Below, piece by piece: positions 9,446-56,269 of a stretch of DNA of 64,000 nt. How positions within the stretch are numbered: the stretch's first letter is position 1; each line of letters opens with the position of its first letter. Source of the DNA: Prorocentrum cordatum (Eukaryota; Sar; Dinophyceae; Prorocentrales; Prorocentraceae). The stretch covers positions 171,501 through 235,500 of the forward strand of contig CAUYUJ010014596.1 of the NCBI GenBank assembly GCA_963575745.1, written 5' to 3'. A program made the translations under genes and the position numbers. The notes beneath the pieces were generated by a model, which saw only the letters and a list, made by a program, of their open reading frames with translations, was not told the origin of the DNA and made no database searches.

Positions 9446-9544
9446 TGTTCCTCCTCGTCCTCTTTATCATCCTTGTCCTCTTGTTATAGCCGTTTTGGCT
9501 TAGCCGCATCATGGCTACAAACGTTCGCTCTGCATAGACTACAT

Positions 9545-11344: not shown

Positions 11345-11358
11345 ACCCGTGTATAGGC

Positions 11359-14932: not shown

Positions 14933-15200
14933 TGTTTGCGGCCGCGAGGGCCACGGTTTGAGCCAGCAGATTCGCCCGCGCATTTCACGTCTTATTCCTC
15001 TTCCTCCTCCCCCCCCCCCCTCCTTCCCACATCCCCCGCATGTTCTTCCCCCCCCCCCCCCCCCCTGCACGCGCGCGCCCCTCCGAAATCCCGAAATCAT
15101 CCTCTCTTCCCTCGTCTCTCCTCCTTGATTCCTCCTCCGCCCTCCTCCCCACCTCTCGCCCCGGGCCGTCTGCCCCCTACGCCTGCATTCCGATGCCGAG
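14820..15200 (+). other. Polypyrimidine tract, probable intron
   Basis: C/T-rich on the + strand with C-runs of 10-18 near 15010 and 15050, following the acidic block. From 15240 to 15540 the sequence changes to the opposite strand of the GGCCTCTTGGG repeat class (CCAAGAGGCCCC), interrupted by a 51-base C-run at 15439-15489. Confidence 0.5.
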
Positions 15201-15438
15201 TGGCGCCGCACTATATGCAACAGCGTGCCCTGCGGCGGACTTGCTTCCCAAGAGGCCCCACGAGGCCCCCGCGAGGGTTCAAGGGGGCCCCAGAGAGACC
15301 CCTTAACCATGCCGCAAGTGGCGCCCAAGATGGTTCCCGGATGGCCCCAAAGCAAGTTGCACTGCACAGGTTTTGTCGCGGCCCCGCGGGGGGCGCCCCA
15401 GGATCATCAAGAGGGCCCAAGAGGCGCCAGAGAGCCCG

Positions 15439-15490
<52 letters not shown>

Positions 15491-15711
15491 CACGAGGACC
15501 CCAAGATGGCTCTTGCGACGGCTCCGAGACTTCCCAGGGACGGTACCAAAGCAAGCTACATGGCGTGGTTCAATGTGCGTGTTTTCGATATCATTATTGC
15601 AGGTACTCGGGGGTGCTCAGGGGATCTCATGGTTGACCTCGTTGTTTGTGATTGTATAAGCTCACATGGGAGATATACTACAACTAGGAACTCGTAGTCT
15701 GGGAGCACAGC

Positions 15712-16495
15712 GTGCAGCATGCTCCACAGTCGCATACCCCACGGCCTACGGTAGTCTCTGAGTTTCGGAACATGAATCGCCCAGGTGGTGGAGGTGATCA
15801 AGGTGGCGGCGGCGACGCTCCCAGGACTCCTGAAGGCGGGCGCGGCGGCGACGCCCCCAGTCTCGGAACCGATGGCGGCGCCGCGGCTCCCGATCCAGAG
15901 CCGCCGCCGGAGGGGCCGCCGAGTGCTCCGCAGCCACCAAGCGTGGCACCAGGTCTCGTGAGTCGAAGCGCCCATCCAGATGCGATTTCCAATTGGGCTG
16001 GGACCAAGTCCAGAATAACGCGCAGCCAGACAAAGGGGCGCCCACGAGGTCGATGGCAAGCGGTTTGCCCATATCACAAAAAGAACGAGGTTACAGCGCG
16101 TGCTCGTCAGTTCGGCGTCAGGCCTTGGAGTTGACAAGGATAGAGCCCGATGTCAGGCGAAGTACTGGTGCTTGAATGCGATAGCTTTCACGCGCAAGCG
16201 GGACCATGCGGCGTCCCCACTCCCTGGCCATCTTCTACCAGAGGGGGCCATTGACGAGCAAGCCGGGCCCCTCCCGCCAGCACCAGATCGGAGCGAGCTC
16301 TTAGATGACGACGAGTTGGACGCGCTTGAACACCTAGAGGCCCCAGCTGCACCAGCGCATATTCCAGCAGTTGCTGCGCCTCACGGCGCAGACGAGGATG
16401 GAGAATCCCGTGGGGGGGGGCCGCGACCCAGTAGCTCGAGTAGCTCGAGTAGCTCGAGTAGCTCGAGTTCGAATGCCAGCGATAGCAGCGATTGA
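15712..16495 (+). CDS. Conserved Cys/His block with poly-Ser C-terminus, unknown function
   Basis: Two frames join near 16100. The first is Gly/Pro-rich, then reads SRITRSQTKGRPRGRWQAVC with P-Y-H-K-K following. The second reads DKDRARCQAKYWCLNAIAFT and RKRDHAA, then an acidic segment and a run of about 15 Ser ending NASDSSD and a stop. The C-P-Y-H-K-K...C-Q-A-K-Y-W-C layout could be a small zinc-binding unit followed by a helix. I do not recognise the family. It lies between the transposase-like and methyltransferase-like genes on the same strand. Confidence 0.45.
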
Positions 16496-16564
16496 AGCAT
16501 TTCGCATCAAGGACTTCGGGCATCCAGCCCAGCTAGCCCTTTGGAGCTGTGGTAGGCCAGTCCG

Positions 16565-17145
16565 GTGAATACCCCTCTCCTGGCCGCTCCTCCTGCTCCT
16601 CCATCTCTCATATTCCTCATCCTGCTCCTTCCCCCTCCTCCTCCTCGTCCCCCCCTCCTCCTCCTCCTCCTCCTCCTCCTCCTTCTCCTCCTGCTGCTGC
16701 TGCTGCTCCCCCTCCTCCTCCCCCCCCTCCTCCTCCTCCTCCTCTCGGGCAGCGCCGACGACAGTGGGCCCCCCCATTACCTATCGGCCAGTGCCCTCGA
16801 AACGTCGCCGAAACGTCCTGCTTCGCATCCGTGGCGACTCGGGCGCCCCTCGATGTCCCAAAGAAGACTTGGGCCCCCCTCGATCTCCCTTTCCCTTCTC
16901 CCTCTTCCCTCTTGTCCTCTCCCTCTTCTCTCATCCCTCCTCTCCCCCCTCCTCCCTCTCCCCACCTCGCTCTCCTTCTCCTTTCGCTCCCCGCCTCCTC
17001 GCCTCCTAGCCTCCTCCTCCTCCTCCTGCCCCCCCCCCCCTCCCCCTCCCCCTCCTCATCACCTTTTCCTCCTCCTCCTCCTCCTCCTCCTCCTCCTCCT
17101 CCTTTCCTCTTCCTCCTCCTTTTCCTCCCCCCCCTTAGGCGCTGC
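16565..17145 (+). other. Long polypyrimidine tract
   Basis: About 580 bp dominated by CTC and CCT triplets on the + strand, with CTG repeats near 16690. Open frames here give Pro/Leu/Ser homopolymers and are not genes. It is either a very long intron or a spacer between genes. Confidence 0.8.
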
Positions 17146-17324
17146 GAGTGCCCGGGCCCGCCCTGCCCCTCCCCCATCCCAACTGCAGCCGCAGAGCGTG
17201 GGTTCTAGGGCAGTTCAGCTCAGAATTGCGAGGTGCGATGCAATTTCTAGCGAAACCCAGGAACACAATATCGAAACAACAACAAACGCACAGCAACGCA
17301 ACACATGCGACATACAAGTGGATT

Positions 17325-17440
17325 TGGGGCGGTACGGAACGGCGCGGAATGGCGCGGAATGGCACGGAAAAACATGGGCCACAACGGTGCGGAATGGTAC
17401 GGAATGGTGCGGAATGGTACGGAATGGTACGGTGTAGGGG
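17325..17440. repeat. 10-11-bp minisatellite GGAATGGTACG
   Basis: About ten degenerate copies of GGAATGG(T/C)(A/G)C(G). The translated products (Asn/Gly/Trp/Val repeats) are artefacts. The flanks 17150-17325 and 17440-17640 hold nothing I can identify. Confidence 0.85.
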
Positions 17441-17644
17441 TTGTGGTGTTTGGTTGCGTGGTCAGTTCAGGGTTGGGCAGGGTTTGCATTAGTTTTTATG
17501 CACAGAGCAGGGAACCAGTTTAATTCACGTAGTTTTCATGAAAACAAAGCAAAGCAGCATCGGATTTGCGTGGTTTCGATTCGGCGCTGCCTCTCGATGC
17601 TCTGATGTCTCCAGAAACATCGTTCCAGGCAGGTTTGACCTCCG

Positions 17645-18900
17645 TTGAGGCCGCGCAGGGCTCAAGCTCTGCGAGGATCAGGCTGTGGTCTCGTCGCGAT
17701 GCTGTCTTGGCGCAGTTTTGAGCTCGATGAGGGGCCTGAAATGTCTGCCAGGCCGGCTGCCCTGACGACTCCAGCATTAACGATGACAGGCAGAGAACGG
17801 CCCGGCGCATCACCTTGGCGCCTCGACAGGGCTGGCCCCGCCACGGCAAGTGAAGCGTTGATGTGGGCCCCGGCTTTCGTGAACACACCCCAAACTAATG
17901 GGGCCCAAATCATCGACCCGGCGTGCGCCAGCGGCTTCCTCCTCGAGAACTTTGCCAAGGCTTTGTCGGGCGGCATCGACTTGTCGACAGACTACAGTGG
18001 CATGGGCGGGCCAGAGCTTGCAGCCCCCATGATCGTGCGTGCGATGGAGCCCAAGTGCGGCGTCACATTCCCAAATGTTGAGTGCTCGCGAGCCGGCGAC
18101 GTGGCAGAGCATTGTCGCACCGTACTTGCAGGGCACTCTGAGCAACTCGCGCCAGAATGCATCTTCTCTGATACCTTGGACCGCTGCCCGCCTTGGAAAC
18201 TTAGAAAGTTGAGGAGCATGATGAACATGGGGAAGACCAGGGTGCGGGGCAAACTCGCTGCCGCCAAGAGTTGCGACACTGGCGTCAAGAAGATCGAGAT
18301 CATCAAAAAAGCGGTGGTCTCATTCATGCGAAGGGCAGCTCGCATGATGATGGAGAAGAAGGATGAGGTCGCGGGCGCGGAGACGCCGTGCTCTGCGCGG
18401 TGCTACAAGCACAGGAAGTTCTGCCAGGTCGTCGGAGCTACAGCGTCGAACGCGCGGTCAGTATCTCGGGGCATGATCGCAGGCATCATCTGATATGATT
18501 GGAGTGTCCGGGGAGCCCAGGAGGGCTGGCTGGGCGATTCCGCCATGGCCTTCCTCGAGTCCATCAGGGAGGTTATCGAGAGCGACTTCGATTGGCTCAT
18601 TCTGGAATGCACGCGGCACTTCGATGATGAACGCGGCCTGGAGCCCCTAAGTGGTCATTACTACGTGGTGGTGCTATTGATATCCCTGCTGTTGTTCGGC
18701 ACCCCCAGCTCGCGCCAGAGGAAGTACATGCTATTGATCCGCCGTGGCAGGCGGGAGTGGCTACCCGAGGTGCGCGCCATGGGGCGCCAGGAGGCGTTCG
18801 AGGCGCTCCTTGCCAGGGAGGTGGCCATGTACGGTGACGAGATGATGCGGGCCCCAGCGAGCGCCCTCTCGGCGCACATGGAGGGGCGGTGTGAATCGCC
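17645..18900 (+). pseudogene. C5-cytosine-methyltransferase-like gene, exon 1 (in-frame TGA)
   Basis: One frame runs through both sides of a single TGA at 18491-18493. Motif I is D-L-S-T-D-Y-S-G-M-G-G-P-E-L-A (about 17968-18010). Motif II/III-like parts follow, with V-E-C-S-R-A and a F-S-D-T-L-D-R segment. The motif IV position reads V-V-G-A-T-A-S-N-A-R-S...G, where the catalytic Pro-Cys is missing. Motif VI is L-I-L-E-C-T, and motif VIII is G-T-P-S-S-R-Q-R-K-Y (about 18698-18727). C5-methyltransferases transfer a methyl group from S-adenosylmethionine to cytosine. Without the Cys and with the stop this copy is unlikely to be active. Exon end near 18890 is a guess. Confidence 0.72.
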
Positions 18901-19089
18901 CATATTATTGCTCTTGCTCCCTCCTGCTCACCCTCGTCTTCTCTCTCTCCTCATCCCCTTGCGATCTGCTGCCCCCCTCCTCCCCCTGACCCCTGTCCCC
19001 CCTCCTCCTCCACCTTCTCGTCCTCCTCCTCCTCCTCCTCCTCCTCCTCCTCCTCATCCCCAGCATCTTCTTACTGCTAATGATCCTCT

Positions 19090-19124
<35 letters not shown>

Positions 19125-19135
19125 TGACTCGATGC
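18896..19135 (+). other. Pyrimidine-rich intron within the methyltransferase-like gene
   Basis: About 240 bp of C/T-rich sequence, including a 31-base C-run (19092-19122), lies between the motif VIII exon and the motif IX/X exon. It ends in CCCGCGCAG, a plausible 3' splice site. The donor is probably one of the GT dinucleotides near 18888, but dinoflagellate donors are variable. Confidence 0.6.
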
Positions 19136-19617
19136 TTCCACCGCCCGCGCAGGGCCCCGCGGCAGCGCAGCGAGGCCTCCCGCCGAGAACACTGGGTGGT
19201 AAGGAGTTCACAGTTTGGCAAGTACTTCCGCCAGCACTGCGACGCCATGTCGCCGGCGCTATGCAGCGTTACCACATCGACCGCCATGGCGTGGAGTCGG
19301 AGTCGAGCCGTGCCATCATCACTGCCGACCAGCGGCCGAATTTCACGTCCCTCATGACCGTGGTCCTAGCAGTGTCGCGCAAGACCGTGCTGCGGTCGAT
19401 CTCAAAGAAGCGGCCGCTCTTGCCTCATGAACTTATCGAGGTGCAGGGTTACGACGTGTTTGGCAGCGACAGCGTCGTGCCCCCTGGGCTCGCCATGCTT
19501 CCCGAAGGGGAGGTGAATTCTTTGGGCTGGAATGGCGCGCACGCAGCAGCAATCGGAGGTGCGTTCATTTTCCTGTTCGCTTGCACGAGGCTTGTCCATT
19601 CGCGCGAGGCTGCGTAG
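19132..19617 (+). pseudogene. C5-cytosine-methyltransferase-like gene, exon 2 (motifs IX and X)
   Basis: The frame runs to TAG at about 19615. It contains RPLLPHELIEVQGYDVFG (19414-19466), which fits motif IX (R-x-L-x3-E-x3-x-Q-G), and SLGWNGAHAAAIGG (about 19519-19560), which fits motif X (G-N-A/G-x...). The upstream TKEF-like and RRHVAGAMQRYHID segments would be the variable target-recognition part. Together with exon 1 this gives all conserved motifs in the usual order, supporting a C5-methyltransferase fold. Confidence 0.7.
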
Positions 19618-19724
19618 CAGAGGTTGCGCAAGCACATGGCATAGGTTTCAGGTTTCCAACTTGCCGGGCAGGGGGTAAGTGGTCGCCATAGTTGCTTAGC
19701 AAGAACATGCGGTCCGGCGGTGAA

Positions 19725-19784
19725 ATTCTCATCGTCCTCATCCACCTCTACCCCCACCTCTCTCTCCTACTCCCGCCTCCCCCC

Positions 19785-19815
<31 letters not shown>

Positions 19816-19990
19816 CCATCCCCTCTCCCTGACTCCCTCCTCCTCGTGCCTCATGCTCCCCCTCCTCCTCCACCAGCCCCTCCTCGTCCAACTCCACCTC
19901 CTCCCTCCCCCTCCTCCTCCTCCTCATCCCCCCCTCCTCCCCCCCCCCCCCCCCTCCTGCCTCCTGCACCGCTGCGCCTCCTCCCAGGGA
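19725..19990 (+). other. Polypyrimidine tract
   Basis: Pyrimidine-rich on the + strand with a 16-base C-run near 19938-19953, between the methyltransferase-like gene and the right inverted-repeat arm. Nothing else is visible between 19620 and 20200. Confidence 0.8.
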
Positions 19991-20204
19991 AGGCCAGGCC
20001 AAGTGTCGAGAGCCTGATGTTGTGCTAAGTGCGCGTTGGCGCCCTCAATGCCACAGAATGGTTCGCCTCGTTCCCATCGTCACTCCTCCCCCGGGGCCCC
20101 AGGGGCCCCTCCTCGCGGCCCTTCTGCGGGGCCAGAATTTCGCGGCCCCCTAGCCCCCACCCGGTCAAACATAGGAGCATCGAAAGACAACTTATCGACA
20201 ACTT

Positions 20205-20620
20205 GTCAACTTACGCAGCACCCCGCAATTGCGGATAAGAGTGAGGGGGCGGCCGCGGGGTGTGTCGCGGGTGTGTCACGGGCGTGTCGCGGGTGGGTCG
20301 CGGGCGGGTCTCGCGGGGTGGGTCGCGGGTGGGTCGCGGGCGGGTCGTGGGTGGGGTCGCGCGGTGGGTCGCGGGCGGGTCGCGGGCGGGTCGCGGGTGG
20401 GTCGCGGGCGGGCCTGGGCGGGGGCGACGCAACAAAAAAACAAAACAAAACAGGCTAACAATTACAAGAACCCTCGCCGTGGATCCCCACTTCAGCCACG
20501 CACCCAGGGGCAGTGAATGACCGTTCGGCCCCCTTCGCTCTGATGATCATCTCCGTACGTCGTTCACGCCGTAGCAATCGAGCAACTGAGCAGTCGTGAT
20601 TCGTGGTTCGCAAACCACTC
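20205..20620 (-). repeat. Inverted repeat arm with 11-bp minisatellite, right copy
   Basis: The reverse complement of 9010-9445 in the same internal order: GCAGCACCCCGCAATTGCGG (20217-20236), a GGTCGCGGGTG minisatellite (about 20265-20415), CAAAA-rich spacer, CCTCGCCGTGGATCCCCAC (20472-20490), and CATTCA-containing head. The two arms face each other across 10.8 kb. Confidence 0.9.
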
Positions 20621-20776
20621 GTTCGCCCGATCTTGCTGCTACCTGGCCTTTGATCCCAGCCCCTCGCCACGCCAGCGGCGCCGCCTCCGTTCGACGAGGG
20701 CGCCGAGGAATATCAGGACTTGGTGTTTAACGCAACGGATGGCTAGGGCGCCGCCGCCGAGCCCGACGCCGACGCC

Positions 20777-21334
20777 GTGGCACAGGCAATTGGCGACGAC
20801 AAGGCCAACGCCAATGGCAAGGGCAAGAAGGGGCGCGGCCGGGGCCGCGGCCGCGGCAGGGGCGGCGGCACAGGAGGCGGCCGCGGCCGCGGCCGCGGCG
20901 GCCGCCGTGCAGCTGCAGTTGCTGGACAGAGCGGCGCCTCCCACGGGGCGGCCGACGGCGGCGGCGAGGCGGCGGCGCCGGTGGCAGAGGATGAGCCGAC
21001 ATACAAGTGCACAGAGTGCGCGAAGTGGAAGCCTGAGAGCTGCTTCTACGCGGGCCAGTGCAAGTGCCCCGAGTGCAACAACGACAGGCGCAAGTGGGGG
21101 CGCTACGTTGCCCAGGAAGACGCCGTCAACTACTGCGGGGAGATGGAGAGGGAGAACAAGGAGATGGCTGCAGCGACCTACAAGGCTTGGAAGGAACACC
21201 GCGGATGCGCTACGAAGGTCAGGAACAAACATAAGTTTTCCATTCGCGAGTGCGCCAAGTCCTGGGAGGCCAAGAAAGGGGCTCGCAAGACCGAGCGGGG
21301 TGAGATGATGTGGGAAGGCGCAGCAATCCACTAA
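20777..21334 (+). CDS. RGG-rich zinc-ribbon protein, unknown function
   Basis: 185 codons, ATG at or just before 20777, ending TAA at 21332. Residues 14-50 are Gly/Arg-rich (R-G-R-G-R-G-R-G), typical of RNA-binding RGG tails. Residues 76-103 read Y-K-C-T-E-C-A-K-W...C-F-Y-A-G-Q-C-K-C-P-E-C, a likely zinc site with Cys pairs C-x2-C and C-x-C-x2-C. The rest is a charged helical region with many Lys/Glu and W-K-E-H. Clear coding structure and no frameshift make it one of the best-preserved genes of the transposon. It could bind nucleic acid as an accessory transposition protein or be a captured host gene. Confidence 0.6.
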   Translation: MAQAIGDDKANANGKGKKGRGRGRGRGRGGGTGGGRGRGRGGRRAAAVAGQSGASHGAADGGGEAAAPVAEDEPTYKCTECAKWKPESCFYAGQCKCPECNNDRRKWGRYVAQEDAVNYCGEMERENKEMAAATYKAWKEHRGCATKVRNKHKFSIRECAKSWEAKKGARKTERGEMMWEGAAIH

Positions 21335-22055
21335 GGGAGCTGAGGGGGGCTCGCTGAGCACGGGCTCAGCGCAGCCGTCGGCGTGCGCGGCTGATGCGGC
21401 GGTCGCGGAGTGAGCGCAGGGCAGCGACCAGGGCCAGGCTAGCTCGGACATCTCGTACTAGTCTGGCTTGTCGGCCCTGGGCTCCAACTGCTCGCGGCCG
21501 CGGCGCCATGCAACAGGCCGCAGGTGGCCTGCGGTCGTTGGGTTTGGGTTTGGGGTGGCCTGCGAGAAGACAGGCCGACAGATCTGTGCGAGTAGCAGAT
21601 TCTGCAACAACAACAACAACAGCAACGACATCATCATCAGCAGCAGCAGCAGCAGTGGCATCATCATCACTCCCACTCCCTCCCTCCCACTCCCTCCCTC
21701 CATCCCTCCCTCTCCCCCCTCCCACCCCCTTCCCCTTCCCGCCCGCCATCCCCCCATGCACCACCTCACTCCCCCTCCCTCCCTCCCCGCCGGAGCGGCC
21801 AGTGCCTCCGGAAACCGAGCTTGGGTTGAGCTTGGGCTTGAGCGAGCCTGGGGCTGAGCCTAGGAGAAGAATGGTGAGTAGTATGGGGGGGGGCAGTGGG
21901 GGGGCAGAGCAGGGAGGAGGGAGTGGGAAGGAGGAGGGAGTGGTACGAGGGGATCGTCCTGTTCCTGCCCCCCCTCCTCCGCCCGGACCGTCCGACGCTT
22001 CCTTTCGCTCGAGATATGAAGGATTGTTGCCGCCTCCCTTCGACGCTCGCGATCG

Positions 22056-22236
22056 TTGCCCGGCAGGCGCCCCTGCGGAGTGGGTCCGAGGGCGCGCCGC
22101 GTGGAACTAAAGCTAGAGGGGGAGGAGGATGACGAGGAGGAGGAGGAGGATGACGAGGAGGAGGAGGAGGACAAGTTCGACGAAGCCGCGGCGCTGGAGG
22201 AAATCGAGAAGGAGGAAGCAGAGGATGACAATGATG

Positions 22237-22268
<32 letters not shown>

Positions 22269-22352
22269 GGCAGTGATAAGTTCAAACACGATCCAGTAAC
22301 CGACGCAGACACAGACGCTGCCCCCTCCCCTCTAGCTTCGGAATTCCGATAG
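22056..22352 (+). CDS. Acidic Glu/Asp-rich coding fragment
   Basis: About 98 codons. After a short basic start the protein is dominated by Glu then Asp (encoded by GAG and GAT runs), ending near A-S-E-F-R. Low complexity makes it uncertain. It may be the acidic tail exon of the RGG/zinc-ribbon gene, since a pyrimidine-rich intron-like stretch (about 21660-21790) lies between them. The region 21340-22050 has no supported gene apart from this possibility. Confidence 0.3.
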
Positions 22353-22489
22353 CACAAACGGAAGAGGAGAGAGGATGATAGGAAGCTGGCGGAGGAGAGG
22401 GTTGATCGGATTGGGCTATGGTAGCGAACTGCTCTCAGGCGTCTTCATACTTTAGACAGGTGTTTCTCAACATTCCGTGTCGGTTCGTG

Positions 22490-23060
22490 TGCACTTCAGC
22501 TCCGTAGCTGGCCTGGGGCTCGCATCAATGCTAACGCACATCATTGCTCGTAAAATATTTACAGTGCGAATAATTGTTTATTGACAGCTTTGCTTGCATA
22601 CCGATTTGTGACGTCTCGATACCGTAGGCGAATGTGCCTTATGACTTTTGTTTCGAGTGTGCGTTCCAGCTCCGTAGCCGACCTACAGCTCGAATAAAGT
22701 AGAGAAAACAAAAGTAGAGAAAATTAATATCATTTCTCAAAACTGGGGTTGGCGGTAAACCGTCAACCTTGGTTACCGCCGGAAGCTCGTATAGCTTCCT
22801 CACGATGTGCATGAGCAACATGCGAGTGCAGCAATCTCGCAATCCGCGCGCGCGAGGGCGGTTTCATAGAAGTCTATGTTACAACCCCTTGCTTGTCCAC
22901 ACTCGAGCTCGTCTCGATGCTGCAGACTAGCGCTCGTGATCATTCCCATTCGGACTGTCTGCTTTCCTTCCAGCTCCGTAGCTTGCCTACATCTCGAATT
23001 AAGTAGAGTAAACCAACACCGCCGATCTAAAATTTGAAGAGCGCAGATAGTTTGTAAGTC
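22490..23060. repeat. Three diverged repeats with a spliced-leader-like core
   Basis: Cores at 22501-22525, 22671-22696 and 22975-23000 begin CAGCTCCGTAGC and continue (C/G)CCTACA(G/T)CTCGAAT. The second and third are followed by AAGTAGAG(A/T)AAAC. Spacings are about 170 and 304 bp. A hairpin with 8-bp stem GGCGGTAA / TTACCGCC lies at 22751-22780, with a weaker related sequence near 23070. TCCGTAGCC resembles the 5' part of the dinoflagellate spliced leader, but the 3' half differs. Confidence 0.6.
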
Positions 23061-23109
23061 GCAGCTCTGGTAGTAAACCGATCTCAACCGTCTGAATGCT
23101 TTCAACTAG

Positions 23110-23425
23110 GGAGTAGGGGGGAAGAGGATGAGGAGTTCCCTCCCCTCCTCCGTCATCGTATCCGTCCTCCCCCCTTCCCTCCGCTTCTTCCTTCGTCCAC
23201 TCCCTCGTCCTTCTTCTCTCCTCCATTATCCCGCTGGCCTCCTCCCTCCTCGCCCCCCCTGCCTCCACTCCCCCTCCTCGTCCTCGTCCTCGCCCTTTTC
23301 CTCCTCCTGCTCCTCCCCCTCCACCTCCTCCCCGTTCCCCCCTTCCCTCCTCATCCTTTTCCTCCATCATTCCTCAATCCCCCTTTTCATTTCGCCCTCA
23401 TCCTCCTCTCTTCTCCTTTATTCGT
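23110..23425. other. Pyrimidine-rich stretch
   Basis: C/T-rich on the + strand, with TCCTC and CCCTC repeats. No gene is supported. It separates the spliced-leader-like repeats from the satellites at the right end of the transposon. Confidence 0.7.
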
Positions 23426-23574
23426 AAGGGCTTCGCCCCCTGCCGCCGGCCCCCTCTCTCGGAGAATGGGCCATGGAAGAGCTAAGTCATAAGGTCTTGG
23501 CGCTGTCGTGAAGCAGTATCGAAACTTCATGCGAAGCCGATTCGCAATCAGCAAAACCAACAGATCACAAGAGG

Positions 23575-23695
23575 GGTTACCACACCTGGCGATTGGTAAG
23601 ACGTGTATGGTTTACGGGCTTGGTTACCACACCTTGCGATTAAAGGGCCGAGGGAGTTCTCGCAGTTTGGGTTACCACGCCTTGCGATGGATGTG
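23575..23695. repeat. 47-48-bp triplicate GGTTACCACACCTTGCGAT
   Basis: Copies start at 23575, 23622 and 23670: GGTTACCACACCTGGCGATT, GGTTACCACACCTTGCGATT and GGTTACCACGCCTTGCGATG. They run directly into the 73-bp satellite. Confidence 0.9.
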
Positions 23696-24390
23696 CGTGA
23701 AGGGTGGCACCGAATTTCAGAAATGTGGCAAATCCCCTGTGTTTTTGGACCCTGACCCCGCGGATCTGCGTGAGGGGTGGCACCGAATTTCAGAAATGTG
23801 GCAAATCCCATGTGTTTTTGGACCCTGACCCCGCGGATCTGCGTGAGGGGTGGCACCGAATTTCAGAAATGTGGCAAATCCCATGTGTTTTTGGACCCTG
23901 ACCCCGCGGATCTGCGTGAGGGGTGGCACCGAATTTCAGAAATGTGGCAAATCCCATGTGTTTTTGGACCCTGACCCCGCGGATCTGCGTGAGGGGTGGC
24001 ACCGAATTTCAGAAATGTGGCAAATCCCATGTGTTTTTGGACCCTGACCCCGCGGATCTGCGTGAGGGGTGGCACCGAATTTCAGAAATGTGGCAAATCC
24101 CATGTGTTTTTGGACCCTGACCCCGCGGATCTGCGTGAGGGGTGGCACCGAATTTCAGAAATGTGGCAAATCCCCTGTGTTTTTGGACCCTGACCCCGCG
24201 GATCTGCGTGAAGGGTGGCACCGAATTTCAGAAATGTGGCAAATCCCCTGTGTTTTTGGACCCTGACCCCGCGGATCTGCGTGAAGGGTGGCACCGAATT
24301 TCAGAAATGTAGCAAATCCCCTGTGTTTTTGAAATGTACAAATCCTGTGTTTTTGGACCCTGACCCCGCGGATCTGCGTGAGGGGTGTCG
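23692..24390. repeat. 73-bp satellite, about nine copies
   Basis: The landmark CCCCGCGGATCTGCG recurs at 23756, 23829, 23902, 23975, 24048, 24121, 24194 and 24267 (exact 73-bp spacing) and again at 24364. Units differ by only one or two bases, so the array is young. The last unit has a 24-bp internal partial duplication (GTGTTTTTGAAATGTACAAATC). Identical 65- and 70-residue open frames in every unit are artefacts. Confidence 0.97.
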
Positions 24391-24638
24391 ATTTCGAGCC
24401 CCCCCCAGCAATTCAGACAACGCGCCCAGGGGGTGCTAAAAAGCCGGTTTGGGCCTCCCCCCCCTCGCGCGGTCAATCAACGAATTACAGTAACCAGCAG
24501 TAAGCAGATTTGTAACACTGGAAACTACAACCTACGACTGGTACAGGAAACTGCGAATCACGGGCCTACAGCCTGGTGGCCCCACAAGGGGGCCGGCGGA
24601 TGTTTCTTCTCCGCCCTCTGTTCCAAACGACTAATGTG

Positions 24639-24825
24639 AACTTCTGCTACAGTACAACACAGACGCACCGAAGCGATGCCATTTACCTACAATACGATAT
24701 TAATGTGTCATTTACCTCACTAGTGTGAGATTTACCTACAGTACGACCCACAACACAACACTAATGTGTCATTCGCCTATAATACAACCCGATTGTAGTG
24801 TTCACCTACAATACAACATAAGTGG
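24639..24825. repeat. Subterminal repeats at the right end of the transposon
   Basis: Five or six degenerate copies of the form CATTTACCTACAATACGA, often preceded by CTAATGTGT, occur between 24639 and 24820 within 190 bp of the right terminus. Clustered subterminal repeats are typical transposase-binding sites in hAT and related elements. The left end does not show an obvious equivalent. Confidence 0.7.
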
Positions 24826-24858
24826 GGCCCCACCAAGCCTCCAACGGACAATCTAACA
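24825..24858 (-). repeat. Right terminal inverted repeat of the 16.4-kb transposon
   Basis: Ends GGACAATCTAACA immediately before the CCTACAAC duplicate at 24859-24866. Read inward it gives TGTTAGATTGTCCG, matching the left terminus. Confidence 0.85.
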
Positions 24859-24866: not shown

Positions 24867-25839
24867 ATCAAGGAGAAGAAGCGCCGGGAGCACCCCACCA
24901 GGGACTCCTCGGACGCCTAGGGGAACCGCTGGCGCTGCCGCATTGTCGGCAGGCGCTCCTGCACCTGCGGCATCGGCGACAGCCCAGAGGTCAGCGGGGC
25001 AACCTGCTCAGAGCTCTGCAGGGCAACCTGCTCAGAGCTCCCCAGGGCAACCTGCTGTTACTTTGGAGATGCCAGTCGAATGCCGAGAGTACTGGGGCAG
25101 GCTACGCACGTCCAACCGCATGAAGATCAACCCCGCATATCATCCTCAATTTGACGACGGGTCTGATCGATGCATCGCGGTGAAGTGCGATCTCGAGGAC
25201 ACCGCCGCCCTCGCTGACAGGGGCGCCCATGCGCGCCAGATGGTGCGTCACATTTTGCGTAAACGCCCGGCGCCCGCATGGGATTTGGAGAAGGGCGACT
25301 TGATTGGGCCCCCCAACGCAGAAAGTCTCAGAAGGCCAAAGTTGAGCTCTGAGGAGCAGCGCCGCTGTTCAGGGTGGCTTACGACTGCTCTCCGTCACAA
25401 GCCCTTTCATACAGGCCATGTTTGTGATCGGTTCCTGCGAGGAGTGCCATCCTTCAATGAATTCGATGGGTGGGTTGAGCTCTCAGAGCTGCCCAACCAC
25501 TGGCCACCTGAAGGACGCGGGCATTCTCATCGCAAGCGCCCGAAGACTGCGCGCCAGAAGTTCAAGAACCACCATTGGGCATGCCAGGCAATAGCTGTGT
25601 TGAACCTGATTGGCATGGTCGACCATACCGGAATGCAGGAAAACAGGCTGCAGCTCAAGAAGTGCCAGTACTCCTCCGAGTCGCGCGTGACGTTTCTCAT
25701 CCGTCCAAGCAACGGACGCAGCAACTCTGGGATAAAGTGCCTTGAACCGTTGTATATACATTTCAGATTCAACTTGTTCAGGTGCACCTCGTTATGTGAT
25801 TCGTGGTGCTCAGTGGGTAAACATCCCCCGTCTGACTGA
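24867..25839 (+). pseudogene. Tpt1/KptA-like RNA 2'-phosphotransferase domain, N-terminal part (copy 1)
   Basis: The frame 24943-25839 opens with Ala/Gly/Pro repeats, including three AGQPA or PGQPA units from hairpin motifs. It then reads WGRLRTSNRMKINPAY, WLTTALRHKPFHTG (A-L-R-H-K-P at 25387-25404), DGWVELSEL and N-R-L-Q-L. Arg-His in L-R-H-K-P and the downstream G-W-V-x-L-x-E-L are the signature of Tpt1/KptA, which removes the 2'-phosphate from spliced tRNA using NAD+. After 25690 the frame changes, and another frame gives Y-V-I-R-G-A-Q, resembling the I-R-A-x-Q-G-H-S motif. It is embedded in the Copia polyprotein downstream of Gag. Confidence 0.75.
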
Positions 25840-25847
25840 GCAGTGAT

Positions 25848-26216
25848 TTGTCATGCCGCGCCGACGACGCCATCAAGAAGAGAGGCAGACAGTTTGCGCA
25901 TGGTTGCCCATATCGTCCAGGCGACAATAGAATCCAGTCCGGCCTGCGCGTTGACTCCGAGGTGTTGGCCATGGTAAGTTTGCCGGTCTGGCGCTTAGCA
26001 AATGATATCATGATGTCAGCAGGCCGCCACGGCAAAATTCCTCCGACCCATATCGCCCAGCTTATGGGGATTCTGCCCAGCGCATGTTGCGTGTTCAACC
26101 ATGTGGGACACGTATGTATCAATCCCTTGTATCTGTGGGATAACAATCAGCCGTATCTAGGTGGTAACATTCTATTGGAAGGATCTACGAATATCGGAAT
26201 GATGCATCACATTTGA
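25848..26216 (+). pseudogene. Tpt1/KptA-like domain, C-terminal part (copy 1)
   Basis: Contains A-I-K-K-R-G, then CPYRPGDNRIQSGLRVDSEV (S-G-L-R near 25938-25949) and NDIMMSAGRHGKIPPTHI. Plant and yeast Tpt1 proteins have a matching S-G-x-R-x-D-x-x-V...N-x-V-I-L-T-x-G...P end, where the Arg is one of the four catalytic residues (Arg-His-Arg-Arg). Copy 2 has the same order at 51820-52020. The NAD+-binding fold is therefore present in both copies, though broken by frameshifts here. Confidence 0.75.
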
Positions 26217-27180: not shown

Positions 27181-27640
27181 AACCTGCTACTTCCAATGCA
27201 GCAGGGGCACCTGCAATCAACCCGGCAGCGTTTGCAGCAATGCAGCTACCGATGGTTCCACCGATTCATCATGAAGCGGGCGAAACCACTCTGGAGCGCC
27301 AGGGGCGTATCAGGCCATCGGCAACACCGCCGCTCATCAGCGACGGTGACGCAACCAGTGTACCATATGCCAGGACCATTTCATGCATCGCGACAAAGTC
27401 TGTAGGCTTTCAGTGTGGTTATATATTCCACGCACAGTGCTGGGGCCGAGTTGCACATGCTCATGTGGATAGACAGTTGGCTGGTAACATGGAAGGCACC
27501 GCAACTGAGGCGCCCTGCGCCATTTGCAGGGGCGTTGGCCTAATCACGGCTAAGTCTCACTTCGCCCTCGCTGGTGATCAGGATGCACTAGGTCGCAATG
27601 GAGATATACTCCCAGGGGCCAACGGTTTCAGTGACCTTCT
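27181..27640 (+). pseudogene. RING-H2 finger domain (copy 1, frameshifted)
   Basis: The first half, in one frame near 27352-27415, reads Q-C-T-I-C-Q-D-H-F-M-H. The second half, in the 26775-27857 frame, reads Q-C-G-Y-I-F-H-A-Q-C-W-G-R-V, then E-A-P-C-A-I-C-R-G. Combined with copy 2 (Q-C-G-H-R-F-H-A-Q-C) this gives C-x2-C...C-x-H-x2-H-x2-C...C-x2-C, the RING-H2 pattern of E3 ubiquitin ligases. The first zinc-binding His of the central pair is Tyr in this copy. It could target host factors or act structurally in the polyprotein. Confidence 0.75.
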
Positions 27641-30246: not shown

Positions 30247-31000
30247 GGGAAGAACCCCATTACGGAAGAAGGGGCCCGTGGATGTATGAACGTTTTTACA
30301 TCTCTGTCACGAAACGACTGGGTGTTGGAGCAGAGGCGCCGCAGGGGCATGCACCGTGCGACACCGTCTGAAATGCCAGGACTACGTGGAGAACGCCATG
30401 AATTGGTCTTGGCAGCAACCAGTGGAATCATGGCGAATGGTATGCTGACAATTCTTCTGGACATGGCAGCAACATTAACATAATTGGTTTAAAGACGGCA
30501 CAGACTTCCGAACCAGTATCTCGCTCCCGCGGACACGCCATCAAGAGGCTGAACCGGACGAAGAGGCTCAACGTGTCCGGAGTAGGACATGGCGCCTCCA
30601 TGTGTGATGAACCCCTGCACTGCAAGATTGCGTGCACAGAAAAGGGAGATCCGGCGGGGGCACCTTCTGCGTCGAGACTTATACCTACTCAGCAAACGTG
30701 GATGAGGGTTTTCAGGGGAGAACCTCCTTGCTATTCTGGGTCTGTGGAGTATGTCCAACATGGGGACTATTCTGATCCTGGAGCAGGGGCACGAGAAGAT
30801 GATCATCCCTGGCTCTGATATGTGCAAGCTTCCACTTGGACGACGTGCCAGGGTGCTCGACTTGATAAAGACTCCTTCTGGACATTTGGCGCCCATGGTT
30901 GACGAGTACGGGGCCGCGACTGAGGATAGAGGGTTGATGTCGTTTACTATTGCGGCCAATCCTCAATGCGCGGATGATCCGTTGCTCGTCAAAGATGCAA
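30247..31000 (+). pseudogene. Aspartic protease region (copy 1, active-site Asp lost)
   Basis: The frame to 30483 reads NVFTSLSRNDWVLEQRR and ELVLAATSGIMANGML. In copy 2 the same place is A-A-D-S-G-T (54386-54400), the retropepsin D-S/T-G active site, so here Asp is Thr (30418-30426). The segments V-S-G-V-G-H-G-A, S-M-S-N-M-G-T-I-L and S-G-H-L-A-P-M-V follow in shifted frames (30573-30960), fitting the distal half of a Copia protease. A working protease would process the polyprotein. This copy could not. Confidence 0.65.
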
Positions 31001-31584: not shown

Positions 31585-31585
31585 G

Positions 31586-32190
31586 CGCTTCTCGCATCAT
31601 TTCCACTCGCGTGCATTTGTTATTGAGGATATACGGGCAGCTTGCGCTGAACTCCGGGCCCGCGGTCACATGTGTCACCGTGTTACACATGCAGAGGTCG
31701 TGACCTCCACTGGTGCGTAATATTTGGGTGCTTCGCTCCCAGTTGACTACCAACTGTTAGGGGTGGCAACACCTGCTGATTGGCATGTGAGATTGCCCGG
31801 CAAGCGGGCAGGGCCACGCTATCAACGCATCCAAAACTTGATGACCAAGGCTCGGGCTCTACGCGTGACTATTGTGCTTGTGGGGCCGCCAGGATATTTC
31901 TGGAAACGAGGTCCTATACGAGACGCCATTGAAGATCTTGACTTGCAGGTCGCGCGTGTGCGATTCTGCCGCTTTGGCCTCAGATGCGACCGATCTCATG
32001 CGTTGCCTAGCGGGTCACATCTGCAACCTGCACGCGCACCCCGACTAACTTGCGGCGGCGCGCGTGCAAACCAGCAGGGGGGCCAGCGTAACTTGCTGAG
32101 CATGTCCTGGACTGGCGCGGACAAGGGGCTCGGAAGGCCGAATGGCGTAACAAGACGCTGGCTATCATGACCGCGAGACTGATTGATCAT
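31586..32190 (+). pseudogene. Unassigned conserved region with Cys cluster (copy 1)
   Basis: Readable parts are HSRAFVIEDIRAACAELRA, then (31724-32170) VATPADWHVRLPGKRAGPRY, ALRVTIVLVGPPGYFWKRGP and VARVRFCRFGLRCDRSHALP. Copy 2 matches at 55590-56080 with R-F-C-H-F-G-H-K-Y-D. The (G-P-P)...W...C-x-F-G...P-S-G order is one I associate with the region upstream of the methyltransferase-like domain in dinoflagellate retroelements. No activity can be assigned. Confidence 0.5.
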
Positions 32191-32569
32191 ATGGACTTAC
32201 AACGTACACGAGACACAGGGAAATCGCGCAAACGTTGTGCACCATAGCATCCACACCCGAGCGGATAAAGGAGTTCGAACTTATGTTCATATTCCGAAGA
32301 ATGGCCCTGGGTGGGGCCACGTCGTAAGACGGGCAACGGTGAACCTGGGCGACGTCGCGATCATACAAGACATCAAGATCCAGGGCCAGCCTATCGGGTA
32401 CAACTACAATGCGCCGTTGCCGAACGGTGTAACCAACATGCGTATTCGATTTCACTGGGAGCAGCCTGAACCTGCTCTCCTCGGACGCGGGAGCTCACGT
32501 CCACGCCCAAGGCGAGTTGCGATCGTCGATGACGATCGCCCCCCCCCCCCCCGCCCCCCCTTCGATTGA
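32183..32569 (+). pseudogene. Short conserved segment (copy 1)
   Basis: 128 codons. The segments GVRTYVHIPKNGPGWGHVVR, VNLGDVAIIQDIKIQGQPIG and NYNAPLPNGVTNMRIRF match 56270-56530. Strong conservation at the amino-acid level suggests real coding. No known domain. Confidence 0.5.
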
Positions 32570-32825: not shown

Positions 32826-33600
32826 GTGATGGCGAAGAGGAAGTGTACATTGCATTATTTGCGGGGTTATTTGCTGAATCCTAGGCAGATGTATTCTGCA
32901 GAATCCCCACCTTGTGATATCGACGTCACAAAAATGGTGCATGCTGGAATTGCGCGGAGGAAGTGGAGGCATCTCACAGCTAGCATTCAGCCGAGGTTTG
33001 TCCTCAGGGGGAAACCTCGACCAACGTTCCTCTGTTGACCTTCGAACCCAGGATGTTCAGGATGCAGTGATGCATTATCTAGACGTTTGCTTCGTCAAAG
33101 TTGTCAGGTTACAACCTGACTGCATAACGACCGGACTACCTTCCCATTTCAATGCGCAGGCCAACTGCGATATTTAGCATGAACATCACACAGAGAATCT
33201 GCCGCATATCAAGTTATGTTGCAAGGTGAATATACGTCATAACGGTTGTCGACGGTTCTGTGCACGAGAGCAACCAGTGGGTACCTGGGTGGACCAGATG
33301 CCACCATGGACTACATTGGCCCAAAGCAGGGGCACCTGCAAGGTGAATATGGGCCAATGTCCTACTGGCCCACGCGATTCCCATGGGGTACTGCTACGAA
33401 AGTCGACCGACATCATGGCCAACCACCGCCTTCTACCTACCCTGTTCGAACGAAGACGATGTGTTGGCCATCATCAACATGCGTCGGCATGTAACAGAGA
33501 ACTGTCCACGGCTGCACATTGCACTCGAAACATGCAGTCGCTCTTTGTCGATGCTGTTCAGATCGCGCGCGATCTCTTCCATGTAAACCGTGACCCCTTC
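32826..33600 (+). pseudogene. Methyltransferase-like domain of the Copia polyprotein (copy 1)
   Basis: In two frames (to 33177 and from 33226): MLELRGGSGGISQLAFSRGL (motif I-like, L-E-L-x-G-G-x-G-G), V-K-V-V-R-L-Q-P-D-C (position of the P-C motif), A-R-E-Q-P-V-G-T-W (E-Q-P, motif VI-like) and GHHQHASACN. Copy 2 reads the same with L-E-L-C-G-G-T-G-G and L-Q-P-S-C. The order fits a class I S-adenosylmethionine fold related to C5-methyltransferases. It lies between protease and integrase. A stop at 33176 interrupts this copy. Confidence 0.6.
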
Positions 33601-34335
33601 CATGGTCACCCTTACTCGTCCACCGTTTTTGTTACCAGCGTGAGGGGATGTGACTTGGACGATCCGAGTCTCCCTCGGCAGCCCGATGGCTCGATCGCGA
33701 GACCACCCTCGGGAGGGCTCGGGTGTCCCGTATGGGCGGATCATGTGAACGTGCGTTCTCCCGCACATGACAGAAATCCTATGTGTTGCAGGTGGTGCGA
33801 TAGGGGCGACTACCACTGGGAATGTCCGAGCTGCAAGAAGAACTACGGCAATAACAAGCCCGGACACGTATTAGCACATGGCTAATGTAAGTTTGCCAGA
33901 CCTTGGAAGCTGCCCGACAATCATGGATAGGCACCGCCGGTCCCTGCCGAACCGGCAGCAGGACCTGCACCACCGGCTCCTGCTGAACCAGCAGCACCAC
34001 CACCCGGGGCGCCAGCCGCATCACCACTTACGTGGCTAAGAGCACCAAGAACCGGCTCTAGGGCTGGACCTACAGCGGGCGCAAGCAGTCACGATATTAC
34101 CGTAGGCAGACATGCTGCTGAACCTGTTGCAGGGCAACCTGCCTCGAGTGGAGCTGGTATTTTGGATGGCCATCTCCGACTGCCACAGGTTAGAGTCAGA
34201 CGTGGCCGACGGCAAGGTGGAGAAGCACCTCCTCCGCCACTGGCGGGTGACCCTGCTGCGCGACCGCGACTTCCAGACTGGCCACGGTTCGACGTACAAG
34301 CCAGTCTACAAATTTAACGAAGCCTTGACCCAAGC
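33600..34335 (+). pseudogene. Cys/His zinc motif and Pro/Ala linker before integrase (copy 1)
   Basis: Reads RGCDLDDPSLPRQPDGS, Y-H-W-E-C-P-S-C-K-K-N-Y-G-N-N-K-P-G-H, then a Pro/Ala-rich linker of about 60 residues ending AGQPASSGAG (hairpin motif 34129-34142). Copy 2 has the same at 60830-61380 with C-P-I-C-K-K-N-Y. It is a possible zinc-binding spacer preceding integrase. Confidence 0.55.
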
Positions 34336-35579
34336 GTGGTAACGCGCGAGTTGCGGAAGCTACTATTGCGCTGGTTTCACGCGAAAGAGCTTAGGATGAT
34401 GTTCATCTCAACTAAGATTGGTCTGGACAACGTCAGATTCAACTTGCTTAAAGGTGTCTGCAACACATGTCGGGAGTTCAGAGCTTGGGACAAGCCTGGC
34501 ATGCGGTCATGCCCTCCACTGCACTGCTTGTTAAATTGGATGGAGGAGTGGAATGTGACTTGATGTCATACAAACAAGAACACAACATCTTTCACATCAT
34601 CGATCGTTGTATTCGATATGCTACTGGAATTGAGGTACCAGACAAGACGATGGCCAGCATCCTGGGTGCATATCTTCAGTGCTGGATGCAGTTTGGACCT
34701 GCAAATGTAGTCTACTCCGACGGAGAGGGTGCCCTTAACAACGACGCTGCGAAAGCAGTCCTCAGGGCAAAAGGCATTGAACTTAGGATGCGTGCGCGTG
34801 GACAGCGCGTGACGACGATCGAAGCCAGAAATGGCACATTACGCCATCTACTTCGCGTTATTATGGAAGCTGCACTCAACCGGTTGGATATATCTCGTGT
34901 GTTCACACGGCTAATGCACGAGGCCTTGTTCGCCGCCAGCGCGTTCACCTTCTACGACGAGGTGTATCCGTGCAGCGCTCTGTTTGGACAGCAACCAGCA
35001 ATGCTTCCTGACTTGCCTGTCCTGGACCACGAGCATCCGACGGGATCGTCGGGACATTCTCGTGCACAGGCGATGCGCAAGGTATGCATTGAAGCAATCA
35101 CACAGGCCACAGCAGTAGCTAAGACCAATCGTGCCTTACGTACTAAGACAACAGTCACTGGTCAGCATTATTACGATGAAGGAGACTTGGTCGATTACCA
35201 TCGCCCCACGACCACGAAGGACGACTGGGGGGCCTGGAATGGCCCATTCCCAGTTGTAAAGAACGGCCCCGAAAAGGGTCAAGTCATCATCCGAGTGGGC
35301 AATCGAGATGTTCAAGTACAATGCGGCGATGCACGACATTCACTCTATATTGAAGCACTGATAGCCCGAGAAATTGGTTCCGACAACACTGCGCTACGGA
35401 CAGCGTTGAAGTTCGTGGCCAGCTTGCCAGCCGGGAGACCTGCTACGGCCTCTGGCTATGTGCCGACCAAGAACGGGGCGCTTCAGATGACGAGTGCAAG
35501 CCGTCCATCTCCTAAGGTACACCTAGCTAAACATTACCTTATCAGGAATTTCTTCCGCATTGAGTTTCTGTCAGGCTAG
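34336..35579 (+). CDS. Integrase (copy 1, largely intact)
   Basis: The pre-integrase part (34336-34563) reads LRKLLLRWFHAKELR and CNTCREFRAWDKPG. The core (34467-35579, 370 codons) has the D,D-34-E triad: Asp at 34557-34559 (V-E-C-D-L), Asp at 34719-34721 (Y-S-D-G-E-G) and Glu at 34821-34823 (T-I-E-A-R-N-G). It also has Y-D-E-V-Y-P-C-S-A-L-F-G and a C-terminal SH3-like region G-D-L-V-D-Y-H-R. Integrase joins cDNA ends to target DNA, making the 5-bp staggered cut seen as CCCTC. All catalytic residues are present. The two frames overlap by a shift near 34470. Confidence 0.88.
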
Positions 35580-35725: not shown

Positions 35726-36685
35726 ATGAGAATCATCCAGTGCCTAGAGTCTACCAAACCTCAAGCAGGTTTTGATCAAGGCATGACAGGATTTGAGGAA
35801 TTTGCGGATGCACCGACGCCAGGTGAAATCGCAAGAGAAGCCTCAGAAGCCGAACCACCACATGATGATGGACGGCTTTTTACGATCTACGAGGAATCGG
35901 AGACTGATCTCGAGTCACATGTCATGGAAGTGCGGCATGCAGAACTACAAGACGAAAGGGAACTGCTGGAGGCAACTCCACCAGAAGACTTTTTCACAAT
36001 ACCCACACAGATGGTTCCATATCAAAGTGTGCTGATCACTTCAGCTGATGATCAGCGGGGGCACCTGCCTAAGTGGGGGCGCACACGCGACTCCGACACC
36101 GAGGAAACGTATTACGTCCCAATGTGTTCCATGGTGAAAGACTACAGCTACGGACTGGACTCAGACGAAAATGGACAATACGTAGAGCATTGCTTCGCGG
36201 CTGAAATGGCAAAGTTTGTCCTGTCCGATCAGCAACGCGTGATTCTAGATGCCGACCGTGTGACCACTATGCGACTATATGTTACCACCGTTGCAAAGCG
36301 AGCTGTGGTCGTCAAGGAAGACGACTTCCTCGCGAAAGCTGACATCCAGGCGAGTCCCGAGAAAGCATCGAAGGCCGTCTACACTGAAAGCAAGACATGG
36401 CTTGACAATATGTGTTTCAAACTGCATGACATAGCTAAAGCGTCAACCATCATGACTCCGAGGTGCGTGCACAAATGGGAGTTCGTGAAGAACGAGAAGG
36501 GCGAGATGGAACGCACCATCCGATTACGCCTGGTACTCCGAGGCTTCATGGACCTTGAAGCCTTCGACGTAGAAACCTTTTTCCGGGAAGAGCGCGGCTG
36601 TCAAGCCAGAGACTATTCGCTATCACGGCAGCGTGCAAGAAGCAATGGGTCATTGTTTCCCTCGACATCAACATGGCCTTCATGA
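35726..36685 (+). pseudogene. Region between integrase and reverse transcriptase, RT N-terminus (copy 1)
   Basis: 319 codons. The first half is acidic (YEESETDLESHVMEVRHAEL). The second reads KASKAVYTESKTWLDN, W-E-F-V-K-N-E-K-G and R-L-R-L-V-L-R-G-F, the last being the finger region of Copia reverse transcriptase. About 27 bp at 36052-36079, containing a hairpin motif, are absent from copy 2 (63250), where the frame also differs. The frame shifts into the RT core near 36620. Confidence 0.7.
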
Positions 36686-56256: not shown

Positions 56257-56269
56257 GAATTCAGATTCG

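Follow-up and report, generated by a model that had tools for sequence, protein, structure and literature searches.

Cellular RNA 2'-phosphotransferases of the Tpt1/KptA/TRPT1 family (PF01885; human and mouse TRPT1, PDB 7yw3 and 7yw2) have a two-lobed fold with an Arg-His-Arg-Arg tetrad, the motifs KxR and HGT and a C-terminal SxNxVxLxxG. The residue numbering used here is that of PMC6333775, according to which the tetrad Arg18-His19-Arg68-Arg121 is essential, HGT holds the NAD+ ribose, and Arg139, outside the tetrad, cages the NAD+ phosphates. KptA is also present in selfish elements, namely in the polyproteins of a Beihai picorna-like virus and a Botrylloides leachii nidovirus, in sawfly nucleopolyhedroviruses, in the Bodo saltans mimivirus and in large phages (PMC9503650). 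Among retroelements, the capture of DNA methyltransferases has been described for retrotransposons of dinoflagellates and charophytes (PMC5890265). In this study, we analyzed a 64,000-nucleotide stretch of the genome of the dinoflagellate Prorocentrum cordatum (contig CAUYUJ010014596.1, positions 171,501 to 235,500; hereafter the window), in which an earlier note had proposed a Tpt1/KptA-type domain inside a Copia polyprotein. The domain occurs twice in the window, once in each of two long terminal repeat (LTR) elements, A and B. Our results indicate that it almost certainly belongs, as a regular component, to the Gag-Pol polyprotein in an LTR/Copia lineage of about 16 kb.

The Tpt1 domain in the window and across the genome

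All motifs on which the proposal was based (ALRHKP, GWVELSEL, NRL, SGLR and a terminal ND..AG...PP) are present in the window copies. In copy A they follow the order LTTALRHKP...GWVELSEL...ENRL and, after two frame changes, GRQFAH...SGLR...NDIMMSAGRHGKIPPTH. The range originally given, 24867..26216, extends beyond the domain into linker on the upstream side and further sequence on the downstream side; the domain proper covers 25345-26066, spread over three frames. Besides its two frame changes, copy A has an 8-codon deletion, RGA in place of HGT, and Glu for the Lys of KxR. Copy B (51491-52022) is interrupted by a stop and a frame change, and a deletion has removed its part with IR..NGHS, HGT and Arg121. 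Copy A retains all four tetrad residues, and copy B all except the fourth, which went with the deletion. Both domains are dead, and both belong to an older branch of the element.

Profile searches supported the identity of the domain. The open piece 51603-52199 of copy B matched PF01885 with an expect value (E) of 3.5e-5 and 24.3 bits, under the curated cut-off of 26, and human TRPT1 (PDB 7yw3) with E = 7.8e-6; no Pfam profile match to PF01885 was obtained from either copy A piece or from the copy B piece 51428-51586. An uninterrupted relative, the EukProt protein P0014, matched PF01885 over the cut-off (E 8.8e-12, 45.9 bits), and its full length aligned with copy A in tblastn, across three frames (2e-93). 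The identification thus holds on intact natural relatives, with no consensus involved, and the structure was predicted to be a Tpt1 fold, with a winged-helix RNA lobe and an ADP-ribosyltransferase-type NAD lobe. A chance match of motifs was ruled out by the profile matches, the fold prediction and the survey of copies.

The 4.13-Gb assembly containing the window was searched with both PF01885 and P0014. Only the best candidates were scored in each search, which makes the copy numbers minimum estimates and biases the conservation figures towards good copies. The best 150 of 2,877 candidates with PF01885 comprised 7 strong matches (L001-L007) and at least 143 weaker matches of the element class (71-92 bits), which represent a young lineage. 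The best 137 of 4,868 candidates with P0014, many of them with stops, represent the older branch. By our own count, 6 of the at least 143 element-class matches had a stop inside the match, and several lay in open frames of 2,926-2,943 codons. All 20 copies read in a context of about 10 kb were one element family along open reading frame 1 (ORF1); comparisons around the hairpins described below found 470 of 475 site-by-copy positions. In L010, a single frame of 2,941 codons, beginning in the LTR, encodes together a zinc knuckle (E 0.002, under cut-off), PF01885 (E 5.8e-27, 95.3 bits, cut-off 26) and a RING domain (E 1.5e-8, over cut-off). Its protease-like segment was recognised by eye, with DVG where DTG or DSG is usual, and had no Pfam match. 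The pol part was seen in L048, downstream of L017, as a frame of 1,733 codons with integrase D-D-E and RNase H motifs read by eye; the Copia reverse transcriptase profile RVT_2 matched over cut-off in this family with E 1.1e-7 (L048) and 6.9e-10. Pfam rve had no match in L029 or L048 pieces, and these were colinear in tblastn with the integrase of window element A. Two elements had LTR pairs of 99.0% (L018/L029, about 16 kb, target duplication CAGCT) and 97.4% identity (L017/L048, duplication TCCTG; both duplications read by eye). Such LTRs, together with the open frames, suggest recent movement.

Comparison of the two families revealed that 9 of 12 pieces of young relatives matched the window colinearly at 32-67% identity (tblastn), in the order Gag, zinc knuckle, RING, protease-like, accessory, methyltransferase-like, integrase, reverse transcriptase and RNase H (the last in A only, B being cut). 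The young Tpt1 piece and the next two had no tblastn match in the window at 1e-4. The Tpt1 domain occupies the same position in both families, in the interval from zinc knuckle to RING, and its proposed place, downstream of the Gag zinc knuckle and upstream of the protease-like region, was confirmed in the window and in intact copies. This evidence bears on whether a host Tpt1 gene was copied or inserted into single elements. Stand-alone Tpt1 loci do exist in the genome, L001-L007 being probably the host's own Tpt1 genes or pseudogenes. However, the at least 143 element-class matches, with 20 of 20 read in context forming one element, the single open frame shared with Gag and RING, and the same place in two diverged families ruled out an inserted host gene, and a passenger or artefact of any such kind has a negligible probability. 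Retro-type Tpt1 also stood apart from all cellular rows in the tree (branch support 93/87, under the starred level and with long branches), and the young type shared 27-35% identity with four stand-alone Tpt1 loci in this genome. Two of the stand-alone loci, L005 and L006, formed a paralog type with the same translation on two contigs.

The retro-type EukProt proteins P0001-P0020, P0022, P0027 and P0046 are all labelled Pyramimonas_sp, a green alga. A green-algal source was rejected: P0014 is 100% identical to G000:C5558 of the Prorocentrum cordatum genome, and DVNP, a dinoflagellate nuclear protein, had 28 matches in that genome as against none in 14 control genomes. Contamination or misnaming seems to lie behind the label, as checked for P0014. 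The protein search covered the best 120 of 820 hits, proteins of about 150-470 residues, with long annotated dinoflagellate polyproteins out of view. A scan of IMG/VR with the Tpt1 alignment gave 29 pattern matches and no relative.

Active-site conservation, selection and possible function

Conservation was analyzed in 26 young copies, hand-picked from the best-scoring part of the at least 143. The equivalents of Arg18, His19, Lys66, Arg68, His101, Gly102, Thr103 and Arg121 were present in all 26, two of which had a stop inside the domain, so the catalytic residues that the earlier note wished to see checked are in place. Among 10 old-branch copies, 7 with stops, Arg18, His19 and Arg68 were each found in 10, Arg121 in 8 and Lys66 in 6; within HGT, His101 was kept in 7 and Thr in 10. 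P0014 has Ile at the fourth tetrad position. The ratio of nonsynonymous to synonymous substitution rates (dN/dS) of the young Tpt1 domain was 0.16-0.35 by bin of synonymous divergence (325 pairs). By region it was 0.19 for Tpt1, 0.27 for the zinc knuckle, 0.06 for RING and 0.18 for the protease-like part, with an overall range of 0.06-0.37; these regional values come from up to 14 of the 26 copies, after dropping those with less than 90% coverage (12 or 13 left in three regions), and include one stop in region 701-1000. The Tpt1 value goes beyond mere ascertainment, because the neighbouring regions were not picked by Tpt1 score. The old branch gave 0.39 (10 copies, of which L038 is P0014 itself), a figure that mixes selection and decay. 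Judged by these codon comparisons, purifying selection maintains the Tpt1 sequence and the catalytic tetrad in the element. At the level of sequence, the domain was established as catalytically plausible, encoded in the Gag-Pol frame and under selection.

What the domain does for the element can be proposed with less confidence. Our favoured reading is RNA healing, a tentative one that we consider somewhat less than evenly probable, whether the healing role is taken alone or jointly with the domain identity. In this reading the Tpt1 domain would be made together with Gag, packed into the particle alongside the element RNA and released by the element protease. It would then use NAD+ to strip 2'-phosphates from the element RNA, arising where host enzymes cut and rejoin it or at healed ends. 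Since a 2'-phosphate in the template or at the primer end would block reverse transcription, its removal would let the reverse transcriptase pass. Processing of the primer tRNA had been suggested as well. The sequence TGGTAGCGGAGCTGGCC follows the 5' LTR in 9 of 9 places looked at (window A and B, L018 and six more), and the matching tRNA is presumably initiator Met-like. The processing idea is somewhat weakened, because the pairing partner of this site is the ordinary 3' end of a tRNA; a half-tRNA primer in need of 3' healing was ruled out, since the pairing includes the CCA.

Several observations weigh against the healing role. The host has an RtcB-type RNA ligase (8 matches in the genome), and RtcB leaves no 2'-phosphate. 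The CPD domain of Trl1-type ligases was not found in the genome, a search in which the control genomes were silent too, so that absence is not established. Pfam recognised no ligase or phosphoesterase in the element pieces scanned. Within the domain itself, HGT is lost in some relatives: two EukProt pieces of the young type have HGA, and old-type EukProt proteins keep the His in 5 of 8 and the Thr in 6 of 8. Finally, all 117 cellular rows compared, which were the top hits of a single search with many vertebrates and plants among them, have Arg at the position of Arg139, whereas 25 of the 26 young copies have Asp there and the remaining one has Gly. The residue does not define the family, and the assignment to Tpt1/KptA is unaffected by its loss. 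Runella Tpt1 with Ala at Arg139 is weak and dependent on high NAD+, and the ADP-ribosylated intermediate accumulates (PMC6333775). By analogy, the young lineage may favour step 1 of the reaction, and full phosphate removal may be poor.

The near-fixed loss of Arg139 thus bears on another reading, in which step 1 chemistry on phosphorylated RNA or complementary DNA (cDNA) ends would add an ADP-ribose cap that shields them from nucleases, ligases and end-sensing until integration. Loss of this residue favours the ADP-ribosylated intermediate (PMC6333775), and solved KptA complexes with DNA and 5'-p-ADPR-DNA exist, according to the titles of 9ld6 and 9lda. On the other hand, the old branch retains Arg139 (9 of 10 copies and 8 of 9 proteins, P0014 being the exception in both), and the tetrad residue Arg68, which is linked to step 2, is kept in all 26 young copies. 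Capping is on balance rather unlikely. A still less probable version of it, which we regard as speculative, is that in the young lineage the Tpt1 fold was re-tuned to a nucleic-acid ADP-ribosyltransferase that marks or caps RNA or cDNA ends in the particle, possibly with the RING domain and with GNRA hairpins as packaging or processing sites.

The same residues bear on whether the domain is retained without catalysis, its La-like winged-helix lobe serving as an extra RNA-binding part of Gag. Such a role would fit its place after the zinc-knuckle part of ORF1, the loss of the NAD-caging Arg139 in the young lineage and the loss of HGT letters in some old-type and EukProt young-type copies. However, all 26 young copies retain HGT and Arg121 in the NAD lobe, which would be dispensable for a protein that only binds RNA, and this reading is very unlikely. 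Counter-defence also has to be considered; here the domain would repair the cuts that host ribonucleases make in element RNA or in tRNA, a role suggested elsewhere for the KptA of phages and of a few RNA-virus polyproteins. To our knowledge, no ribonuclease defence of this kind has been described in a dinoflagellate host, and the same lack of a Pfam-recognised ligase speaks against it. The presence of KptA inside the picorna-like virus and nidovirus polyproteins, for which a role in RNA processing has been proposed (PMC9503650), speaks for it. We consider counter-defence unlikely, and RNA healing remains the reading that we favour.

GNRA hairpins and other features of the elements

The sense strand of the Tpt1-bearing elements is tiled by 5-bp hairpins with GNRA loops, mostly of the form GCNNG-GNRA-CNNGC, as seen in L010 ORF1, L018/L029 and L017/L048 and in window segments 4199-8349, 24859-38505 and 46785-64000. 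L010 ORF1 has 25 such hairpins on the sense strand and none on the antisense strand, whereas 300 synonymous shuffles gave a mean of 1.64 and a maximum of 6. In 19 further copies, divergence per base was 0.013 in stems and 0.065 in flanks; 14 stem changes were two-sided and pair-keeping, 15 were one-sided and kept as G-U, and 16 were breaking (counted as cells, not events, several being shared by descent). In the window, the elements contained 25 hairpins of the strict form (G-C at both stem ends, G-U allowed inside) in sense and none in antisense, and 34 kb of window sequence outside them contained none. When perfect stems of any letters were counted, the elements had 11 in sense and 1 in antisense, with 0 and 1 in two other stretches. 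Controls (sense/antisense) gave 0/0 in 3.7 kb of a nearby different Copia element, 1/1 in 24.5 kb of stand-alone Tpt1 loci and 0/1 in 9.7 kb of DVNP loci, the last two being what chance would give. Hairpin tiling is weaker in the old branch, where ten loci totalling 38 kb, their sense set by hand, gave 8 hairpins in sense and 3 in antisense.

The hairpin of the window family is GCAGGGCAACCTGC, which encodes linkers of the AGQPA type (for example at 25018-25031); with up to 2 mismatches it was found 34 times between 5539 and 61346, 33 times on the + strand, as against 0.97 expected. An AGRPA stretch also occurs within the young-family Tpt1 domain, directly before HGT. The window hairpins were read by eye as AGxPA, whereas 20 of 25 in the young ORF1 lie in another frame. 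Thus, AGxPA as a peptide signal was rejected, RNA being a likelier target of selection than peptide. The nearest known idea is that of dispersed packaging-signal hairpins in RNA viruses (PMC6281560); a literature search on the GNRA tetraloop with retrotransposon packaging signals found no report.

The features of the window are listed in Table 1. According to self-comparison and LTR analysis, element A is a decayed LTR/Copia element spanning 4199-38505, with CCCTC on both sides and 22 mismatches in 260 aligned LTR positions (91.5% identity). Its halves are parted by a long insertion and by a second block of 2 kb (28165-30248). Element B, which is likewise a decayed LTR/Copia element, runs past the window end.

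Two accessory regions are conserved in both window elements, at the start of L010 ORF2 and in L048:465-1244, one of them methyltransferase-like with the motif LELCGG(T/E)GG. No Pfam match over cut-off was obtained for them (best DUF5956, E 4e-4), and none was significant for the methyltransferase-like pieces of B and L048. ORF1 terminates at a common TGA (context TCTTCATCT TGA AGATGG) in 10 of 14 copies (L010, L012, L014, L016, L017, L019, L020, L022, L024 and L027); L018 also ends with TGA, and L009, L013 and L015 end elsewhere. An open frame of at least 275 codons follows directly after the ORF1 TGA to the locus end in L010, L012, L014, L018, L019, L020 and L022, and L017 has a further stop after it. 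This arrangement makes stop-codon readthrough to pol possible. Directly downstream of the L018/L029 element lies a different Copia element (L029:438-3728, - strand; RVT_2 E 4.9e-11). Other repeats in the window were inverted repeats in the long insertion of element A (9045-9353 and 20256-20547) and tandem arrays of 73 bp, 64 bp and about 160 bp (23543-24418, 40525-41976 and 28481-29783).

Table 1. Features of elements A and B in the window (window coordinates).
Element	Feature	Position	Strand	Details
A	5' LTR	4199..4460	+	262 bp; target duplication CCCTC at 4194-4198
A	Primer-binding site	4461..4477	+	TGGTAGCGGAGCTGGCC, complement of tRNA 3' end ..CTCCGCTACCA
A	Gag and zinc-knuckle region	5371..6230	+	tblastn with young-family Gag and CCHC pieces: 41-42% identity, E 2e-45, 2e-11
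A	Other DNA, 16.5 kb, foreign to element	8350..24858		self-blastn: homology to B ends at 8349, restarts at 24859
A	Tpt1 domain, N-terminal RNA lobe	25345..25758	+	frame +1; LRH (Arg18, His19), ENRL (Arg68; Lys66 = E); tblastn with P0014
A	Tpt1 domain, middle	25760..25834	+	frame +2; HGT = RGA; tblastn with P0014
A	Tpt1 domain, NAD lobe	25836..26066	+	frame +3; GRQFAH (Arg121), SGLR (Arg139), ND..MSAG...IPPTH; 8-codon deletion; tblastn with P0014
A	RING-like region	27282..27545	+	tblastn with young-family RING piece, E 4e-9
A	Protease-like region	30465..30918	+	tblastn E 4e-17; young-family query named protease by eye
A	Accessory region	31610..32449	+	tblastn E 2e-71
A	Methyltransferase-like region	32941..33576	+	LELCGG.., named by eye; tblastn E 2e-65
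A	Integrase	34297..35138	+	tblastn E 1e-65; PF00665 (rve) E 5e-4, under cut-off
A	Copia reverse transcriptase, broken frames	36413..37351	+	tblastn E 2e-71; PF07727 E 0.022 on one piece, under cut-off
A	RNase H region, broken frames	37352..37998	+	named by eye; tblastn E 5e-69
A	3' LTR	38244..38505	+	91.5% identical to 5' LTR; CCCTC at 38506-38510
B	5' LTR	46785..47046	+	start read by eye; same primer-binding site at 47047
B	Gag and zinc-knuckle region	47985..48828	+	tblastn E 9e-37, 5e-16
B	Tpt1 domain, part 1	51491..51631	+	frame +2, internal stop; LRHKP; tblastn with P0014
B	Tpt1 domain, part 2	51630..51815	+	frame +3, to KNRL and slightly past, then internal deletion; boundary approximate; tblastn with P0014
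B	Tpt1 domain, C-terminal NAD lobe	51825..52022	+	SGLR...NDIVMTAG...IPPTH; PF01885 E 3.5e-5; PDB 7yw3 E 7.8e-6; tblastn with P0014
B	RING-like region	53331..53720	+	tblastn E 3e-20; Pfam RING models E 0.04-1 on open piece
B	Protease-like region	54660..54878	+	tblastn E 4e-11
B	Accessory region	55606..56437	+	tblastn E 8e-73
B	Methyltransferase-like region	56861..57553	+	named by eye; tblastn E 2e-82
B	Integrase	61514..62344	+	tblastn E 4e-70
B	Reverse transcriptase, cut by window end	63579..63996	+	tblastn E 3e-39

Comparison with known systems

An RNA-repair and tRNA-splicing enzyme as a standing part of Gag-Pol, under selection and in a large family, would mean that, for one retroelement lineage at least, reverse transcription or the biology of the particle is affected by 2'-phosphates or by end chemistry. 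The purpose of NAD+-dependent RNA repair in selfish elements thereby becomes open to test, as does the role of Tpt1 where tRNA splicing does not require it. Moreover, step 1 and step 2 chemistry can be compared between two natural forms of the domain, one that has Arg139 and one that lacks it. Our literature searches, based on titles and the starts of abstracts and with subscription journals mostly outside coverage, returned no report of a Tpt1/KptA borne by a retroelement.

The domain shares with the cellular enzymes the fold, the two lobes and the tetrad and motifs given at the outset. It differs from them in being embedded in Gag-Pol, in its long loops, in an extra in-frame hairpin-coding stretch before HGT and, in the young lineage, in the Asp at Arg139. 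None of the viral KptA bearers is a retroelement, and the main text of PMC9503650 contains no mention of a retrotransposon or Copia. With the methyltransferase-bearing retrotransposons the lineage has in common that a dinoflagellate retroelement took up a host enzyme. The enzyme is a different one, the Symbiodinium Copia elements there have no methyltransferase, and the main text does not mention a phosphotransferase (PMC5890265). Finally, the element shares with Ty1/Copia its LTRs, a 5-bp target duplication, a tRNA primer site, the CCHC knuckle of Gag, a protease-like region, integrase, RVT_2 and RNase H, whereas its size of about 16 kb, with Tpt1, RING, methyltransferase-like and further accessory regions and a sense-strand array of GNRA hairpins, sets it apart.

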